Source of the DNA: a virus
IMG/VR virus record: IMGVR_UViG_3300035703_000195
Span: 1 to 39,293 of that record
DNA length: 39,293 nt
Strand: one strand, 5' to 3'
Made by a program: the position numbers and the translations under genes. The notes under the pieces are model-generated. The model ran no database searches, was not told where the DNA came from, and worked only from the letters and a program-made list of their open reading frames with translations. The stretch's first letter is position 1, and the number at the start of each line of letters is the position of its first letter. This document shows positions 12,281 to 39,293 of this stretch, in pieces.

Positions 12281-12492
12281 GCTATCTCCGTCTCTTAACT
12301 GCTTTTCTGGCCGCAATCACACAAATTCCCGGTCTGCTTCGGTGGATCGGGAAACTCTTTGATAAGAGTCTTGCAGAGCAGTTAAAAGAGGTGGAGGAAG
12401 CGGAAAAAGCACTTCAGGGAGCCAAGGATGAAGCGTCTCGGGATTCCGCTCTTAAAAGGGTCAAAGATAGCGTTACTCGCTACCTGCATTAG
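12277..12492 (+). CDS. Candidate inner-membrane spanin (Rz-like)
   Basis: This 71-aa protein has an N-terminal hydrophobic segment (LRLLTAFLAAITQIPGLL), then a charged coiled coil (AEQLKEVEEAEKALQGAK) and a short basic end. Its last 65 bases overlap, in another frame, a gene with a lipoprotein-like start. This is the usual Rz/Rz1 arrangement. It is shorter than most Rz proteins, so the call is tentative. Translation is coupled to the preceding gene through ATGA. Confidence 0.5.
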   Translation: MSYLRLLTAFLAAITQIPGLLRWIGKLFDKSLAEQLKEVEEAEKALQGAKDEASRDSALKRVKDSVTRYLH

Positions 12493-20681: not shown

Positions 20682-20804
20682 TGTGTTTTCTCCAATTCTG
20701 AATCGGCAGTTATCCGGCGCGATAGTGCGGCGAATTGTAGGGGCCTCATCAGTACGCGCATAACGCGTAGACCGCGCCCCTAGCAGGGGCGGCGGTTTCG
20801 GCCT

Positions 20805-20876
20805 TTATTTCGTGCCTTCCCAAAACATTAGGAAGGTGAGGGGCGGGATCAGCAGCATCAAGTAATCAATGTTCAT
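20805..20876 (-). CDS. Possible 23-aa membrane micropeptide
   Basis: This is a 23-aa peptide with one hydrophobic stretch (YLMLLIPPLTFLMFW) and a GTK end. No ribosome site is obvious; the near-palindrome at 20878 lies directly before the ATG. It resembles other membrane micropeptides in this region, which is the main reason to list it. Confidence 0.35.
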   Translation of the reverse strand: MNIDYLMLLIPPLTFLMFWEGTK

Positions 20877-20877
20877 C

Positions 20878-20897
20878 GTGTGATCATGTTAACAGCA
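20878..20897. promoter_or_regulatory. Near-palindromic operator-like motif, copy 1
   Basis: This 20-bp site, GTGTGATCATGTTAACAGCA, matches the sites at 22823-22842 (17 of 20) and 25574-25593 (17 of 20). The core is a near-palindrome around CATG. It lies in the gap between the 134-aa gene and the clamp region. A repressor or activator site is the simplest idea. Confidence 0.5.
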
Positions 20898-20910
20898 TTC
20901 AATGGACGCG

Positions 20911-21315
20911 TCAATACTCTTGATCCACGCGCCCCCGGCGGGCCTCTTTCCAGCGCCGAAAAACCCACGCTATCCACTCCGATGGCGCGATGGTCTCCCA
21001 TACTTCGCCATCGCCAGCCCCGTACCATGCGCGGGTTGCCTTCCTCATGCTCCAATAATTCCACGCAAAAACGGGATGCCATGAGGTCACGCGGCCGCCC
21101 GAATCGCAGTCTTGAAGCCCGACGGCGAGCCAGTAAGGGAAGCACTTCCGGGCGCGAGAGGCGAGCTTATCGATCCAATACGGGCGAATGGGACCGTGCC
21201 ACGGGATCGGACCGCCGGAAAGACCGTTCTTGTATTCAAAAAACCACCGGCGGCCGTCTGGCAAGGCGCGCGGGAATTGGTAGATTTTAAGGTTTCCGAG
21301 TTTGTATCGTTTCAT
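20911..21315 (-). CDS. Hypothetical GC-rich gene, 134 aa
   Basis: This 134-aa basic, Trp-rich protein (MKRYKLGNLKIYQFPRAL start; HPVFAWNYWSMRKATRAWYG in the middle) has GGGGGTG as ribosome site. The reading back to 21369 is rejected because it overlaps the previous gene and has no ribosome site. Base use is much richer in G and C than in neighbouring early genes, like ArdC. No family was recognised. Confidence 0.55.
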   Translation of the reverse strand: MKRYKLGNLKIYQFPRALPDGRRWFFEYKNGLSGGPIPWHGPIRPYWIDKLASRARKCFPYWLAVGLQDCDSGGRVTSWHPVFAWNYWSMRKATRAWYGAGDGEVWETIAPSEWIAWVFRRWKEARRGRVDQEY

Positions 21316-21602
21316 GCTGCACCCCCTTCGCGTCCGCAATGCGGGCATGGTTGCGCGACAAGCTCCCAAGCGCGGGCCTCTACTTGGAGTCTTTCGATCT
21401 CCGAGATCGAAAACACTCCCGCGAGGGTCATTGCCTCGCCGACGATCTGCGAAGCGACCTGTTTCAGTGTTACGGGGCGACGGCCTCCACGCTCCACGGG
21501 CGCGCTGAATGCGGCCACCATCTCCGGCCCCAAGTAGGGCAGCGGTTCAAAGTCGGGGCGGCGGGCAATGTCATAAGCGGCGAAAAACTGGTTACGGGTC
21601 AT
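21312..21602 (-). CDS. Hypothetical GC-rich gene with C-terminal CPHCG
   Basis: This 96-aa protein begins MTRNQFFAAYDIARRPDFEP and ends with a cysteine knuckle (QPCPHCGREGGAA). It has GGAG upstream and an ATGA overlap with the next gene. A helix (ISEIERLQVEARAWELVAQ) comes before the knuckle. Codon use is GC-rich as in ArdC. No family was recognised; the CPHCG suggests half a zinc site or a dimeric one. Confidence 0.55.
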   Translation of the reverse strand: MTRNQFFAAYDIARRPDFEPLPYLGPEMVAAFSAPVERGGRRPVTLKQVASQIVGEAMTLAGVFSISEIERLQVEARAWELVAQPCPHCGREGGAA

Positions 21603-21618
21603 GATAGGGGTCTCCTTT

Positions 21619-21804
21619 TTAGATTAGGTTCATGCCGAGTGAATCGGCGGCCTGTTCAATGGTCATTTTTCCGGCTTCAAGGTCTTCAATGACATCGGTT
21701 AGGTGTCCGTGCCATTCCGCTGCCCCCTCGTCTTCCTCGCTATCGAATACGATTTGGGCGCGCTGTTGTTTGAGGTATTGAATCACTTTTAAAAGATCGT
21801 GCAT
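21619..21804 (-). CDS. Small acidic protein next to ArdC
   Basis: This 61-aa acidic protein starts at ATG 21804 with AGAGG upstream; the longer reading to 21966 lies inside ArdC. It has a helix (MHDLLKVIQYLKQQRAQIVF), an acidic linker (DSEEDEGAAE) and a last helix (LEAGKMTIEQAADSLGMNLI). The acidic surface could suit an antirestriction or DNA-mimic partner, but this is a guess from charge and position. Confidence 0.55.
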   Translation of the reverse strand: MHDLLKVIQYLKQQRAQIVFDSEEDEGAAEWHGHLTDVIEDLEAGKMTIEQAADSLGMNLI

Positions 21805-21821
21805 TTTTTTGGTTTCCTCTC

Positions 21822-21840
21822 GGTTGGTTGGTTGGTTGGG
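21822..21840 (+). repeat. (GGTT)4GGG tetranucleotide repeat
   Basis: Four and a half units of GGTT lie in the gap between ArdC and the 61-aa gene. Five GG pairs in a row can form a two-layer G-quadruplex in the plus strand. Length change here would alter the spacing ahead of the 61-aa gene's ribosome site region. Next to it a 5-bp hairpin (AGGCC/GGCCT) is seen at 21841-21856. Confidence 0.6.
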
Positions 21841-21868
21841 AGGCCTTCCATGGCCTCTAGGTTTCGAT

Positions 21869-22771
21869 TTAAGCGGTTTTTGTCTCCGGGGCATAGGTTG
21901 CGCCCGTGATGTGGTCTGCGGCCTTCTGAGCGGCTCCTGCGGCCTGTAACGCGAGCCGGGAGTCACCCTTTAAAACCTTGATCCATGAGGCAAGATAGGC
22001 CGCGCTGTTGTCCATGAGGTCGCTCCCGTCAATCCCGGCGGTGGCGAGCAGGAAAGCGCTCCCCATTTCAGCCACTAGCTCCTCTTTCGAGTACTCATGG
22101 GAGCCGAACGAGGCGAGTTTCGTCAAGCTGTCCCGGTTCAAACGCGAACGGTGGCCCGTAGAGTGGGCAAGCTCATGGAACAGGGTTCCGTAGTAATGGG
22201 CGGGCGTTTGGAAGGTCTCGCGCGGCGGCATAGCCACAAGGTCCATGGATGGCGCGTAGCACGCCCGCGTCCCCTTGTGGACGATTTGCGGGCGGCCCGC
22301 GAAGCCTTGGACGATCCGCTCCGCGCTTTCGATCGGGTTGAATGCGGGGCGCGGAGTGACCGGGGTCGCGTCGATGCCGAGGGCTTCCGGGGTGATCCCG
22401 TCAATCTGATCGAGGTTAAAGACGGTGTAATGGCGAAGGAAGGCGAAGCTCTCAGGGTCTCCCCCTTCCTCCCCGTCACGGGTGACGCGGTTCCAGTAGG
22501 TGACGGGCGTCCCGGTCGATCCGGCCTTGACGCGGCCCCCGCGCTCCCGGACTTGGTTGAAGGTCAGCCAGTACGGAGTCGAGAATCCCGCGCACCCGGT
22601 CAGGATCGCGTTAATTCCCCGGTAGACAGTCCCGGTCGCAGGGTTGCGCTGGACCATCGCGGCTCCGGTTGCGGGGTCCCATGGGCGTTTCCACGGGTTG
22701 ACGCCCGCTTCCATCCGGGCGATCAGGGTTTCGGTAACGCGCTCGTAAACGGTCTTTTTTGATTCACTCAT
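21869..22771 (-). CDS. ardC: ArdC-type antirestriction protein
   Basis: This 300-aa protein has both ArdC parts. The N-terminal single-strand DNA-binding domain (DUF1738 type) reads VYERVTETLIARMEAGVNPW, then RGINAILTG and PYWLTFNQV. A C-terminal zincin protease-like domain has FHELAHSTGHRSRL, giving H-E-x-x-H, and the downstream EELVAEMGSAFL as third ligand region. Plasmid ArdC protects incoming single-stranded DNA against type I and II restriction. The start at 22771 has GGAG at ten bases; an extension to 22807 has none. The gene is clearly richer in G and C than the structural genes, which suggests separate acquisition. Confidence 0.9.
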   Translation of the reverse strand: MSESKKTVYERVTETLIARMEAGVNPWKRPWDPATGAAMVQRNPATGTVYRGINAILTGCAGFSTPYWLTFNQVRERGGRVKAGSTGTPVTYWNRVTRDGEEGGDPESFAFLRHYTVFNLDQIDGITPEALGIDATPVTPRPAFNPIESAERIVQGFAGRPQIVHKGTRACYAPSMDLVAMPPRETFQTPAHYYGTLFHELAHSTGHRSRLNRDSLTKLASFGSHEYSKEELVAEMGSAFLLATAGIDGSDLMDNSAAYLASWIKVLKGDSRLALQAAGAAQKAADHITGATYAPETKTA

Positions 22772-22822
22772 TAGTAGGGGTCTCCTGTAGGGTTGCGGCC
22801 CGATCATTCGAGCCGTACATCA

Positions 22823-22842
22823 GTGTTAACATGATAACAGCA
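22823..22842. promoter_or_regulatory. Near-palindromic operator-like motif, copy 2
   Basis: The site GTGTTAACATGATAACAGCA lies 51 bases upstream of the ArdC start. It contains GTTAACATGATAAC, close to a perfect palindrome. It matches copy 1 at 17 of 20 positions and copy 3 at 16 of 20. Its place suggests control of ArdC. Confidence 0.55.
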
Positions 22843-22845
22843 TGA

Positions 22846-23530
22846 ATGCAATAGGGGCCGAGTAGTTTTTTTTCGACGCACCCCCGCCACCAGCAATTCC
22901 CACTGGTTACGGTCCGGATTAAAAAAGTATTTTAACAATTTGAAAACGGGTGAGATGATCTCCAGAGTCAATCGGGAGTCATACCACGCCCACGCACTAC
23001 ACGCGTTAGGATGCCCACAGAGCGCGCCAAGCGCGGCATGAGTCTAGGTACTGGCCGGGTCCGTAGACGCGTTCTAGCGAGAAATCGCGGTTTGGCTTAA
23101 CAATCTCGCGTCAAATCCTGCGCTCCACGCGCTCCAAGAGTCCAGGCGTCCAGGAGTCGATTGCGCTCATGGTGTCCGGTGTGTCCTGATCCACGCGGAA
23201 AGGGGTAGTGTAACCTCATCCCATGCCCGACCAGTCAAGTCAAGCGGGTGTCAGGTGTTCGCCCCCGGAGTCAGTCAGCGGCTCCCGGTCTTGTGCGTGT
23301 CAGACTCCCCGGCTCCTCACCCCCACTAGCCTTCCCTCTCCGGCTCCCGATCTCGCGTCACCCGGTCTTGTGTCATGCATCGCAGCCCGGCCACCCCTAG
23401 GCCCCACCCCACCCCCCTCCCGCGCCCGCCCGCCCCCACCCCCGCGCACCCCACGGCGCGCACCCCCTCCCCACGCCCACCCATTGCGCTCCGACGCGTT
23501 CGCCGTCGCGCGTCTATTTTCCAAAACTCT
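22846..23530. other. GC-rich non-coding leader upstream of ArdC
   Basis: About 0.7 kb holds no gene I can support. It is GC-rich and dense in short repeats: CGGCTCC three times and CCGGTCTTGTG twice between 23279 and 23371, and GTCCAGGCGTCCAGGAGTC near 23142-23160. Proline-rich or Gly/Arg-rich frames here are by-products of base composition. A leftward promoter lies at its right edge, so it would be transcribed as a long G-rich leader ahead of ArdC. Confidence 0.6.
23386..23482 (-). other. Cluster of 15 G-runs on the minus strand (G-quadruplex potential)
   Basis: On the plus strand, C-runs of three or more begin at 23386, 23394, 23402, 23407, 23412, 23419, 23425, 23429, 23433, 23439, 23449, 23463, 23469, 23476 and 23480. 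In 23401-23460 only six of 60 bases are A or T. The minus strand, which is the RNA-like strand for the leftward promoter at 23537, can form several G-quadruplexes, and the plus strand i-motifs. Confidence 0.75.
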
Positions 23531-24099: not shown

Positions 24100-24255
24100 C
24101 TATTCTGACTTGCGGTCATCCCATTTATTCGACCAAGGCCACCATACGCGCTTGATGATGGGGTTCCAGTTTGGTGTGGGCATATTCCACAGCTTCCAAC
24201 TGCGGTTCATGATGATAAGGGTGGTGATGATAATTGCGATTGCGATGAGTGTCAT
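24100..24255 (-). CDS. Small membrane protein downstream of the structured RNA
   Basis: This 51-aa protein has an N-terminal membrane segment (MTLIAIAIIITTLIM) and a Trp- and Lys-rich cytoplasmic tail (WNPIIKRVWWPWSNKWDDRK). The ribosome site GGAGCAAAT is strong. Its leader begins directly after the structured RNA and its terminator-like end at 24298, so readthrough or an RNA switch could set its level. No family was recognised. Confidence 0.65.
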   Translation of the reverse strand: MTLIAIAIIITTLIIMNRSWKLWNMPTPNWNPIIKRVWWPWSNKWDDRKSE

Positions 24256-24297
24256 ATTTGCTCCTATTAAGCCGTTAATAAGTTCTTCTTAACATCT

Positions 24298-24500
24298 AAA
24301 AACCCCCCAAAGAAGAGCTTGGGATACCGAAATTGTTCCGTTACCGGATAACCTTCGGGTGCTTGGTCTTGTGAGTGGAATCACAATCCGGGGAAGTAGT
24401 TGCACTTCCTTGGGGGGTGCTTGTGGTTGTGCCACAAAAGTTTGGCCGAATTAACCCCTGCTCGGCTCTACACAGGACAGACGCGCCCAAAGGAGGGGCG
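24298..24500 (-). ncRNA. Structured RNA with terminator-like 3' end, family not recognised
   Basis: The leftward strand can fold into at least six helices. Arm positions on the plus strand are 24484-24488/24496-24500, 24445-24449/24462-24466, 24421-24426/24432-24437, 24392-24397/24404-24409, 24369-24374/24381-24386, and 24327-24331/24354-24358 with an inner 4-bp stem at 24340-24343/24349-24352. A 9-bp helix (24302-24310/24410-24418) closes the last three hairpins into a multi-branch unit. Leftward, its 3' arm GGGGGG is followed by TTTTT. The same arm can instead pair locally (24306-24310/24319-24323) to make a short terminator. Such competition is typical of riboswitches or attenuators, but a free small RNA is equally possible. 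No known RNA family was recognised. Confidence 0.6.
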
Positions 24501-24505
24501 TTGGT

Positions 24506-24679
24506 TTATGTTGTTCCTTTCAACGCTTCACGGGCTTTTTTCTCGCAATAGGCAAGCGTTGCCTCGTTGGAATAGATGCAGTGAACAATGTCATCGAGCG
24601 CTTCCCGATAACGAGCGTTTTCGGCCTTCAGGTTTGCAATAACCATCAATGCAGCATCCAGTTCGTTTTCAATGCCCAT
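24506..24679 (-). CDS. Small coiled-coil protein (57 aa)
   Basis: This 57-aa protein contains LDAALMVIANLKAENARYRE, a short coiled coil, and HCIYSNEATLAYCEKKAREA, with two cysteines. It lies between the secreted repeat protein and the structured RNA; its stop is six bases before the first RNA hairpin. No family was recognised with certainty. Confidence 0.55.
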   Translation of the reverse strand: MGIENELDAALMVIANLKAENARYREALDDIVHCIYSNEATLAYCEKKAREALKGTT

Positions 24680-25562: not shown

Positions 25563-25591
25563 ATCTTATTACGGTGTTATCATGTTATCAA
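25563..25591 (-). promoter_or_regulatory. Leftward promoter overlapping the third near-palindrome
   Basis: On the minus strand TTGATA (25586-25591) and TAAGAT (25563-25568) are 17 bases apart. The -35 and the start of the spacer lie inside the repeated 20-bp near-palindrome (25574-25593), so a bound protein would block this promoter. Confidence 0.5.
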
Positions 25592-25593
25592 CA
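25574..25593. promoter_or_regulatory. Near-palindromic operator-like motif, copy 3
   Basis: The site GTGTTATCATGTTATCAACA agrees with copy 1 at 17 and copy 2 at 16 of 20 positions. It is centred on CATG and overlaps the -35 of a leftward promoter and the stop codon of the zinc protein gene at 25588. Confidence 0.55.
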
Positions 25594-25938
25594 TTTATTT
25601 TCACAAATGAAAAAATAATTGTACCCGTCATTGGAAAGTTTGATTGCAGCCCTCTTTCCGCAGTGCAAACAGAACTCTTGGTGGAAGCTCTCGGCCTTCT
25701 TCATTGTCTCTTGAGAGATGAACATGGCCTCCTCCATCACTGCATTCTCATACGCCTCAAGGCCCATCGGCTCCCGATAGAACTTCTTGCGATAAGACTG
25801 CACCAATGCCTTTATTTTATCGCTCTCAAGATCACTTGTTAGCAATTCGCTTACCCCATTTCTCCGCGTATGTTTTAGTAGACCCGGTAGCATTATTGCT
25901 GCTAGAGCGTTCAATTTCTGTATATCGACCTTTTCCAT
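25588..25938 (-). CDS. Zinc-binding protein overlapping the helicase gene
   Basis: This 116-aa protein starts at ATG 25938 with GAGGAATGAAG before it, inside the helicase gene (107-base overlap in another frame). The C-terminus has two cysteine pairs (FCLHCGKRAAI and FICENKC). The middle has a helical YRKKFYREPMGLEAYENAVM. Such an overlap is long for phages, but the ribosome site and the zinc pairs support a real gene. No family was recognised; it may assist the helicase. Confidence 0.6.
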   Translation of the reverse strand: MEKVDIQKLNALAAIMLPGLLKHTRRNGVSELLTSDLESDKIKALVQSYRKKFYREPMGLEAYENAVMEEAMFISQETMKKAESFHQEFCLHCGKRAAIKLSNDGYNYFFICENKC

Positions 25939-27462: not shown

Positions 27463-27555
27463 AAGGCCCCCCTTTTTGTTGTTAATACATTGATGTTTTC
27501 AGGGAGATTTGCTAACCTTTTTGGCAAGCAGATGACTCCCAGACCCATTTGCGAT

Positions 27556-27609
27556 CCAGACACCCGGCCAAGGGTGATTCTGGAACATAGGCCGGATACA
27601 TCCCGGCCT
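27556..27609. promoter_or_regulatory. Pair of strong hairpins in the divergent early/late gap
   Basis: A stem of CCAGA-CACCC (27556-27565) with GGGTG (27572-27576) and TCTGG (27579-27583), with a two-base bulge, is followed five bases later by a perfect 7-bp stem (27589-27595/27603-27609) and TTTT on the plus strand. They lie ahead of the initiator gene in leftward RNA. They may be a rightward terminator, or paired RNA hairpins in the early leader. Confidence 0.5.
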
Positions 27610-27724
27610 TTTCCATTTTTGAAGCACCAATTCTCAAAAGTCAAAGCCAAAATCCAAAAAACAGTTTTTTTGCTTTAGAGGCTTGCTATTGTAAAATTAA
27701 GATGGCGGCTTATCATGGATGAGA

Positions 27725-37522: not shown

Positions 37523-38262
37523 AGGCCAAGCCAATTCAGCATCTAAATACGGGATATGCAGGGAATGGGTTTAATCCCATTATTAGTGCAGTAAATGGCT
37601 CACAGATTCAGCTTTATTCCTTGAGAATGATTAACCAATCCGGCAGTGCTTCTGATTTAGCGGCATTGCAGACGATGAGTACGGATGCGGTCAATGTTTA
37701 TACCTTCACGCCGCCATCTACTGTAACAAATGTTACGGCCAATCTTTTAGCTGGTTCTAGCACAGCATTTTTTAATGCTACTGCTGCCAGTGGGGTAATC
37801 ATTGAGTCTCGTCAAAAGATTCATGCTTTTCTGGTCAATGTAAGTGCTGCACAGTCAGGAGCCAATACATTTACGACTTCTTACTCAAATGGAACTGGAT
37901 TTACTACGGTTCTTCAGACCATTTCTGTACCCACGACATTTGCAGCATCTCCTTCTCAATATGTTGTTTTGTTCTCTCCGGGCAATGATTATGCGCCGGG
38001 TTGTGGCCTTGTTGGAACTGATTCATCTTTGTTTCAGATCCGGTTTGCTTGTGTCAGCGCATCAACAACTTGTTCGATCAATTCATTGAGGGCTGCAAAG
38101 TCAATTCAGTATAGTCCAAATGTGGCGAACAATGCTGGTATGGAAATGATTTTCAGTGAGAACAGGCCATACACTTTACAGGCTGGAGAAAGTCTGGTTC
38201 CTTTTTATGGAGTGGCTGGTAACAGTAACAAGGTGATCGCTTTTTATCAGTATCAGAACTGA
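37519..38262 (+). CDS. Structural protein (247 aa), complete copy
   Basis: This 247-aa protein is beta-rich, Ser/Thr/Ala-rich and has no enzyme motif (GSQIQLYSLRMINQSGSASD, then ANLLAGSSTAFFNATAASG). It precedes the adaptor, as minor head or connector proteins do. It is the full version of the fragment at 1-281; the part from codon 155 onward is shared by both ends. It starts in ATGA overlap with the preceding gene. Confidence 0.65.
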   Translation: MKAKPIQHLNTGYAGNGFNPIISAVNGSQIQLYSLRMINQSGSASDLAALQTMSTDAVNVYTFTPPSTVTNVTANLLAGSSTAFFNATAASGVIIESRQKIHAFLVNVSAAQSGANTFTTSYSNGTGFTTVLQTISVPTTFAASPSQYVVLFSPGNDYAPGCGLVGTDSSLFQIRFACVSASTTCSINSLRAAKSIQYSPNVANNAGMEMIFSENRPYTLQAGESLVPFYGVAGNSNKVIAFYQYQN

Positions 38263-38269
38263 GGTTTAA

Positions 38270-39247
38270 ATGGCTAACTACGAGAATACGCAAGACTTGA
38301 AAAAAGGCGTACTCTTTAGGTGCGGCGAACTTGATGACGGTACATCGGAATACGATGCAAAAGTCATTGAGTATTTGAACCGAGCGCAACAAGCAATGGT
38401 CTCGGGAGCGGCTGAACTCGATCTAGATATTGGGGAGCCGTTCCCGTGGGCCTTAAATCAATACAATAAGATTCTAATTATTGAGCCAGCGATCAATAGT
38501 TTGGCAGTAACTTTCACAAATGGATCTGCAACGGCGACCCTCTCTGCTACTCCTCCTAATAATCTTCTTAATTATTGGATACAGCCTGAAAATAGTTCAG
38601 AAACCTATAGAATCTCCGCTCATACAGGTACAAGCACAACAGTTACGCTAGATAGCGTATATATCGCAACAAGCGCAACAAATCTTCCATGTACCATTTT
38701 TAAGACTGATTACGAGCTTGATACAAATATTCTCAGACTTGCCAATCCGTTCATTACTAACTATGACGAGGTAATTCTTTACAATTCTGACCCCGGACAG
38801 ATTGTTGGAGTTGATCTGTCCGAGTTTATGCGGCAGTACCCATTGTTCCTTTATCGGGCATCTACTCCTACCGCATTTACACAAGTATTTAAAACAAATG
38901 ACATGAAGCCTACGGTTCGATTTAATTCTGTTCCAGTAAATCGAATCAGGATTCAGTACAACTATGTCCCTGTCCCTACCGCGTTGACGGATTCTGCTCT
39001 CTCAATTCCGATTATTCCTAGAGATCACAGAATCACGCTTGAATACTACGCATCGTACTATCTTTGCACCGATAAGAACGATAGCAGGGCACAAGAATAC
39101 CGAGAATTGACTAGGGCCGGGATGAGGGCTTTGGTAAAGGCGTGGAAGCAAGAGAAGATCACCACAAATCCCGATTTCGGTCGAATGATTGCTAGACCCG
39201 ATAGAACTTATGACTATCGTAGAAATTGGAATTGGTGGTGGTACTAA
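38270..39247 (+). CDS. Head-tail adaptor, short allele
   Basis: This 325-aa protein is the second allele of 289-1566. It lacks the 103-codon insert and differs at about 20 further residues, mostly in the beta-rich half. The ends (first 60 and last 60 residues) are nearly identical in both. The ribosome site and spacing are the same in both copies. Function as for the long allele. The short form is likely the basic one, since the insert is cleanly added in frame. Confidence 0.75.
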   Translation: MANYENTQDLKKGVLFRCGELDDGTSEYDAKVIEYLNRAQQAMVSGAAELDLDIGEPFPWALNQYNKILIIEPAINSLAVTFTNGSATATLSATPPNNLLNYWIQPENSSETYRISAHTGTSTTVTLDSVYIATSATNLPCTIFKTDYELDTNILRLANPFITNYDEVILYNSDPGQIVGVDLSEFMRQYPLFLYRASTPTAFTQVFKTNDMKPTVRFNSVPVNRIRIQYNYVPVPTALTDSALSIPIIPRDHRITLEYYASYYLCTDKNDSRAQEYRELTRAGMRALVKAWKQEKITTNPDFGRMIARPDRTYDYRRNWNWWWY

Positions 39248-39293
39248 ATGCCATATACAGGGCAGATAGCCGAAATTAAGTTTGGTGATAACG
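39248..39293 (+). CDS. Start of tail stabilisation protein (cut by window end)
   Basis: These 46 bases are identical to 1567-1612, the beginning of the 578-aa stabilisation gene. The window ends inside the gene. Its presence shows that the end of the contig runs back into the start of the same gene map. Confidence 0.9.
   Translation, partial: MPYTGQIAEIKFGDN

Follow-up and report, generated by a model that had tools for sequence, protein, structure and literature searches.

What is the structured RNA that lies between two small leftward genes of an uncultured phage, and what might it do there? The window considered here is the whole 39,293-base stretch of IMG/VR record IMGVR_UViG_3300035703_000195, a single contig. 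Its structural genes run rightward, and its replication genes and small early genes run leftward. Two of the small leftward genes are separated by a gap of 250 nt that holds no gene, which is indeed the setting that a preliminary description had given for a multi-hairpin RNA. The flanking genes and the elements of the gap are as follows.

24506 to 24679, minus strand: upstream small gene (57 aa, no family match).
24421 to 24505, minus strand: remainder of the gap, mostly inside the span described earlier; several short stems (z 0.01).
24297 to 24420, minus strand: structured, branched terminator-like RNA unit made of a closing helix (P1), two hairpins and a U-run, assessed by folding against shuffles.
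24402 to 24418, minus strand: P1 5' arm (ACCCCCCAAGGAAG, mismatch, GC), with a pairing probability of about 1.
24389 to 24410, minus strand: early hairpin GGAAGU-GCAACU-ACUUCC, overlapping the P1 5' arm, seen in prefix folds (-7.5 kcal/mol, z -4.1).
24365 to 24390, minus strand: hairpin 2 (UUGUGA-UUCCAC-UCACAA, with flanking GG/CC), present in the minimum-energy fold and the centroid.
24326 to 24358, minus strand: hairpin 3 (CCGAAG/UUUCGG, a 4x4 internal loop and UCCG-GUAA-CGGA with a GNRA-type tetraloop; -12.9 kcal/mol, z -2.5).
24303 to 24324, minus strand: alternative local hairpin of terminator type (UCCCAAG-CUCUUC-UUUGGGG), from folding, sharing its U-run with P1.
24302 to 24318, minus strand: P1 3' arm (GC, mismatch, CUUCUUUGGGGGGU), from helix search and folding.
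24298 to 24302, minus strand: U-run UUUUU at the end of P1, the presumed termination site, assessed by sequence and shuffle statistic; its first U is paired in P1.
24100 to 24255, minus strand: downstream small gene (51 aa, hydrophobic N-terminus, AGGAG ribosome-binding site, no family match).

The first clue is stability. Read leftward, the 124-nt unit (24420-24297) folds at -48.7 kcal/mol with a z of -5.1, and none of 200 shuffles is as stable. In a scan with 25 shuffles per 130-nt segment, in which one segment was deliberately placed over the unit, its z of -5.84 came second among 1361 segments folded out of 1506 planned. The z of -5.1 and the helix shuffle test described below are independent of this rank. 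This branched, terminator-like RNA of about 120 nt is real, and its fold is statistically unusual. However, it is smaller and simpler than first described. The preliminary description counted six or more stem-loops as one object, but 24421-24505 folds at the shuffle mean, so that its hairpins are at chance level and give no evidence of function. A small pseudoknot picked out by eye in 24445-24480 was discarded, as no structural signal rises above chance there. Nor does the three-hairpin arrangement proposed for the unit hold, since the minimum-energy fold has only two hairpins. The GGAAGU/ACUUCC stem overlaps the P1 5' arm and is displaced by P1. Prefix folds suggest that this early hairpin would form first and give way later.

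Strong folds also occur elsewhere in the window. The segment 1469-1598, at the boundary of two tail-region genes, is the sole one ranked above the unit among the 1361 of 1506 folded, with a z of -6.7 on the minus strand and -5.3 on the plus strand. Two more lie on the plus strand: 27521-27650 (z -5.5), directly before the rightward structural genes, and 12285-12414 (z -4.5), a long nested stem near an intergenic gap.

The second clue is the closing helix. The preliminary description noted a 9-bp helix (24302-24310 with 24410-24418) running leftward into TTTTT. This helix is present, and it extends to 14 bp (24405-24418 with 24302-24315, including one G-U pair, U24311-G24409), followed by a U-U mismatch and then two further pairs. 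P1 encloses a branched loop of about 85 nt. With spans of up to 200 considered, no helix on the leftward strand of the 39-kb window scores higher. As a helix abutting T5 it scores 34.5, whereas 400 dinucleotide shuffles of the whole strand averaged 20.2 and never exceeded 31, although the statistic was picked after the helix had been seen and is thus a check on chance rather than a blind test. A boxA-like GCTCTT lies within the P1 3' arm, but it is too short to carry any meaning and was disregarded.

Could the element act as DNA rather than RNA, for instance as a cruciform, a replication origin or an inverted repeat that binds a protein? The plus strand of the unit also beats its shuffles (z -3.4), and replication genes lie 1.3-3 kb away. 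However, the minus-strand fold is better, as expected where G-U pairs on that strand turn into A-C mismatches on the other. In addition, only on the minus strand is the arm followed by the T-run, and the loop is long for cruciform extrusion. A DNA-level role is therefore very unlikely.

Does the unit belong to a known family? The preliminary description recognised none and offered an Rfam search as the check. At both the gathering threshold and permissive E-values that search found nothing credible at the RNA unit, the lone overlapping match being a sub-threshold one to AgvB (16.1 bits against a gathering threshold of 56, E 1.8). Searching the region by blastn against phages, plasmids and E. 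coli genomes turned up nothing beyond a chance match of 20 nt to Aeromonas phage CC2. Pattern scans for hairpin 3 and for P1 with the early hairpin gave only chance-level matches outside the window. A covariance model built from the single sequence and run on the fetched loci reached at best 15.4 bits (E 0.14) outside the window, compared with 161.5 bits for the sequence itself. A further match of 22.5 bits is the RNA unit site itself, read on the plus strand.

Protein searches fared similarly. No relatives of the neighbouring small proteins were found by tblastn in phages. Scans of IMG/VR with the DnaB-like helicase, the small early proteins, the replication protein and the clamp plus phosphoesterase gave no usable relative, and a scan of GTDB genomes with the helicase gave no match; these scans are sensitive to close relatives only, so that an absence of homologues is not proven by them. 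The match to the replication protein (L086/L087) was rejected, since it lies in an otherwise unrelated phage. A terminase search of IMG/VR was more productive, with seven close relatives (L002-L008) of 90-96% identity, all of them fragments. Their similarity to the window lies in the structural genes and, for the longest of them, also at 5.67-15.75 kb (94%). None of the seven records holds the RNA region.

These results bear on a sceptical reading, namely that the structure arose by chance or by misassembly of a mosaic metagenome contig. The RNA region is in no second contig, and the ends of the window overlap imperfectly (91-93%), which means that the contig may mix variants. The repeated ends are 1-1612 and 37982-39293, the identity being that of the best blocks. 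This has the appearance of a genome of about 38 kb, circular or redundant, whose assembly drew on mixed variants. Nevertheless, the helix is unequalled in 400 shuffles, and in a close relative the match to the window extends to 15.75 kb and resumes at 27.6 kb, though not between. Chance or an assembly artefact is the least probable of the explanations considered.

What, then, does the unit do? The reading we favour, with somewhat better than even confidence, is that it is a branched RNA serving as a leftward intrinsic (factor-independent) terminator. As in such terminators, a stable G+C-rich stem runs directly into a U-run on the transcribed strand, and it lies 3' of a gene on the same strand. 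The absence of any match to P1 and its U-run in 400 shuffles, the z of -5.1 and the co-directional flanking genes all argue for termination. In this respect the preliminary description is supported, since the fold z, the U-run statistics, the better minus-strand fold and the direction of the genes agree with its terminator-ended structured RNA on the leftward strand. A terminator scan of 22.7-27.7 kb gave the unit site as its sole leftward match, while its matches overall were at chance number.

One aspect that does not fit so neatly is the loop. The loops of intrinsic terminators are usually 3-8 nt. The local hairpin conforms to this, whereas the more stable P1 encloses about 85 nt of branched RNA. 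That is long for an intrinsic terminator, and therefore the local hairpin may do the stopping. The sharing of one U-run with a second, short stem is a further departure from the usual design. An observation that argues against termination is that the unit lies inside an operon: the genes beyond it, at 24255, 24067 and 23853, would then lack any evident promoter of their own. A leftward promoter-like match at 24255-24227 falls within the 24255 gene.

Where would the transcript begin? A possible start lies upstream.

25563 to 25595, minus strand: promoter-like site TTGATA-17-TAAGAT over a palindromic operator-like repeat, from promoter scan and repeat search; possible start of the leftward unit.

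The repeat is near-palindromic, 22 nt long with the core consensus GTGTTATCATGATAACAC, and it occurs in three copies on the minus strand (25574-25595, 22823-22844 and 20878-20899), two of them directly before gene starts. Matches to the core number four, at the three places, where 0.08 would be expected by chance. The copy at 25574-25595 overlaps the promoter-like site just before a gene whose internal start is preceded by AGGAG. Promoter-like matches in the scanned region number 10, against 5.1 in shuffles, so that any single match is weak evidence. This arrangement suggests that a leftward unit may begin near 25563-25591 and meet the terminator at 24298.

The favoured terminator could work in the following way. 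A leftward transcript probably starts near 25563-25591 and passes several small genes. In the RNA from 24420 to 24297 the hairpins would fold first, beginning with GGAAGU/ACUUCC and continuing with hairpin 2 and hairpin 3. Emergence of the last arm makes two stems possible: the short local CCCAA/UUGGG hairpin, and the 14-bp P1, which can zip up by way of the free CCCCCC stretch. Either P1 or the local hairpin, set against the U-run, would release the transcript at about 24298. The 3' end of the freed RNA would be compact, locked into P1 and expected to withstand 3' exonucleases; perhaps the terminator leaves a stable 3' RNA. The 24255 gene might then be expressed by readthrough, by antitermination or from a promoter that was not recognised here.

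What if termination is itself regulated? The unit sits in the leader of the 24255 gene, and a ligand, a protein or a ribosome could set the choice between termination and readthrough, making it a cis-acting switch. The preliminary description leaned this way, likening its mutually exclusive pairings to a riboswitch or attenuator. Attenuators and riboswitches with terminator expression platforms do have pre-gene segments with more than one pairing, as here, where CCCAA and UUUGGG segments pair alternatively and a further copy, CCUUUGGG, lies near 24486-24494. The alternative pairing of CCCAA at 24319-24323 can indeed form a hairpin (-6.8 kcal/mol). However, that hairpin taken alone is ordinary (z -0.53), and the fold forced into it is about 9 kcal/mol worse than P1. 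Moreover, the local hairpin and P1 abut one common U-run, and so both would terminate. In the equilibrium ensemble of the 250-nt gap the P1 3' arm pairs with its partner at a probability of 0.99-1.0, and the ensemble contains no antiterminator. In known switches of this kind the alternatives do not both terminate, and Rfam gave no match to a known aptamer family. A switch is thus improbable, and from equilibrium folding the local hairpin is better taken as a probable quick terminator or folding intermediate than as a regulatory state.

The main rival to the terminator reading is a free phage small RNA. Such an RNA, of about 120-200 nt, would start from its own promoter in or near 24420-24505 or be cut from the operon transcript. 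It would end at the terminator of the unit and act in trans by base pairing, by protein binding or as a decoy. The compact and improbable fold with its terminator and the 250-nt gap without a gene count in its favour, as does end-to-end pairing, which is common to many stable RNAs. Phage and bacterial small RNAs with terminator-derived 3' ends resemble the unit in their compact fold, terminator-like 3' end and intergenic position. However, 24420-24505 has no sigma-70-like promoter at the threshold of the scan (phage-specific promoters lie outside what the scan covers), and Rfam gave no match. We therefore regard a free small RNA as possible, though distinctly less probable than a terminator. 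A more specific version is about as doubtful as the switch. This would be a new class of structured phage RNA, free and about 120 nt long, in which the end-to-end helix doubles as the terminator and the two hairpins are the binding site for a factor of the host or the phage; one of these hairpins has a GNRA cap and a symmetric internal loop.

The two readings would matter in different ways. If the unit is only a terminator, its branched design joins a long helix and a quick local hairpin on one U-run, which could make termination robust to the folding route taken. A free RNA, on the other hand, would represent an orphan class of phage RNA, and the single sequence offers a concrete probe for relatives as phage collections grow.

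Beyond the unit, the stretch 20750-23500 stands out for a G+C content of 54-67%, against about 46% for the window. Within it lie an ArdC-like anti-restriction gene (21869-22807) and, at about 23320-23480, a gene-poor section that is G-rich on the minus strand and has G-quadruplex potential. A candidate type II hammerhead ribozyme lies at 20803-20735 on the minus strand. It has a complete core (GAAA, GUC and CUGAUGA) with stems I and III closed, and a local search against RF02276 gave 28.9 bits (E 3.6e-4), below the gathering threshold of 37; its cleavage is putative. Hammerheads flanking the anti-restriction gene ardA have been described (PMC3088659). The candidate lies about 54 nt before a sliding-clamp-like gene and about 1 kb from the ArdC gene.
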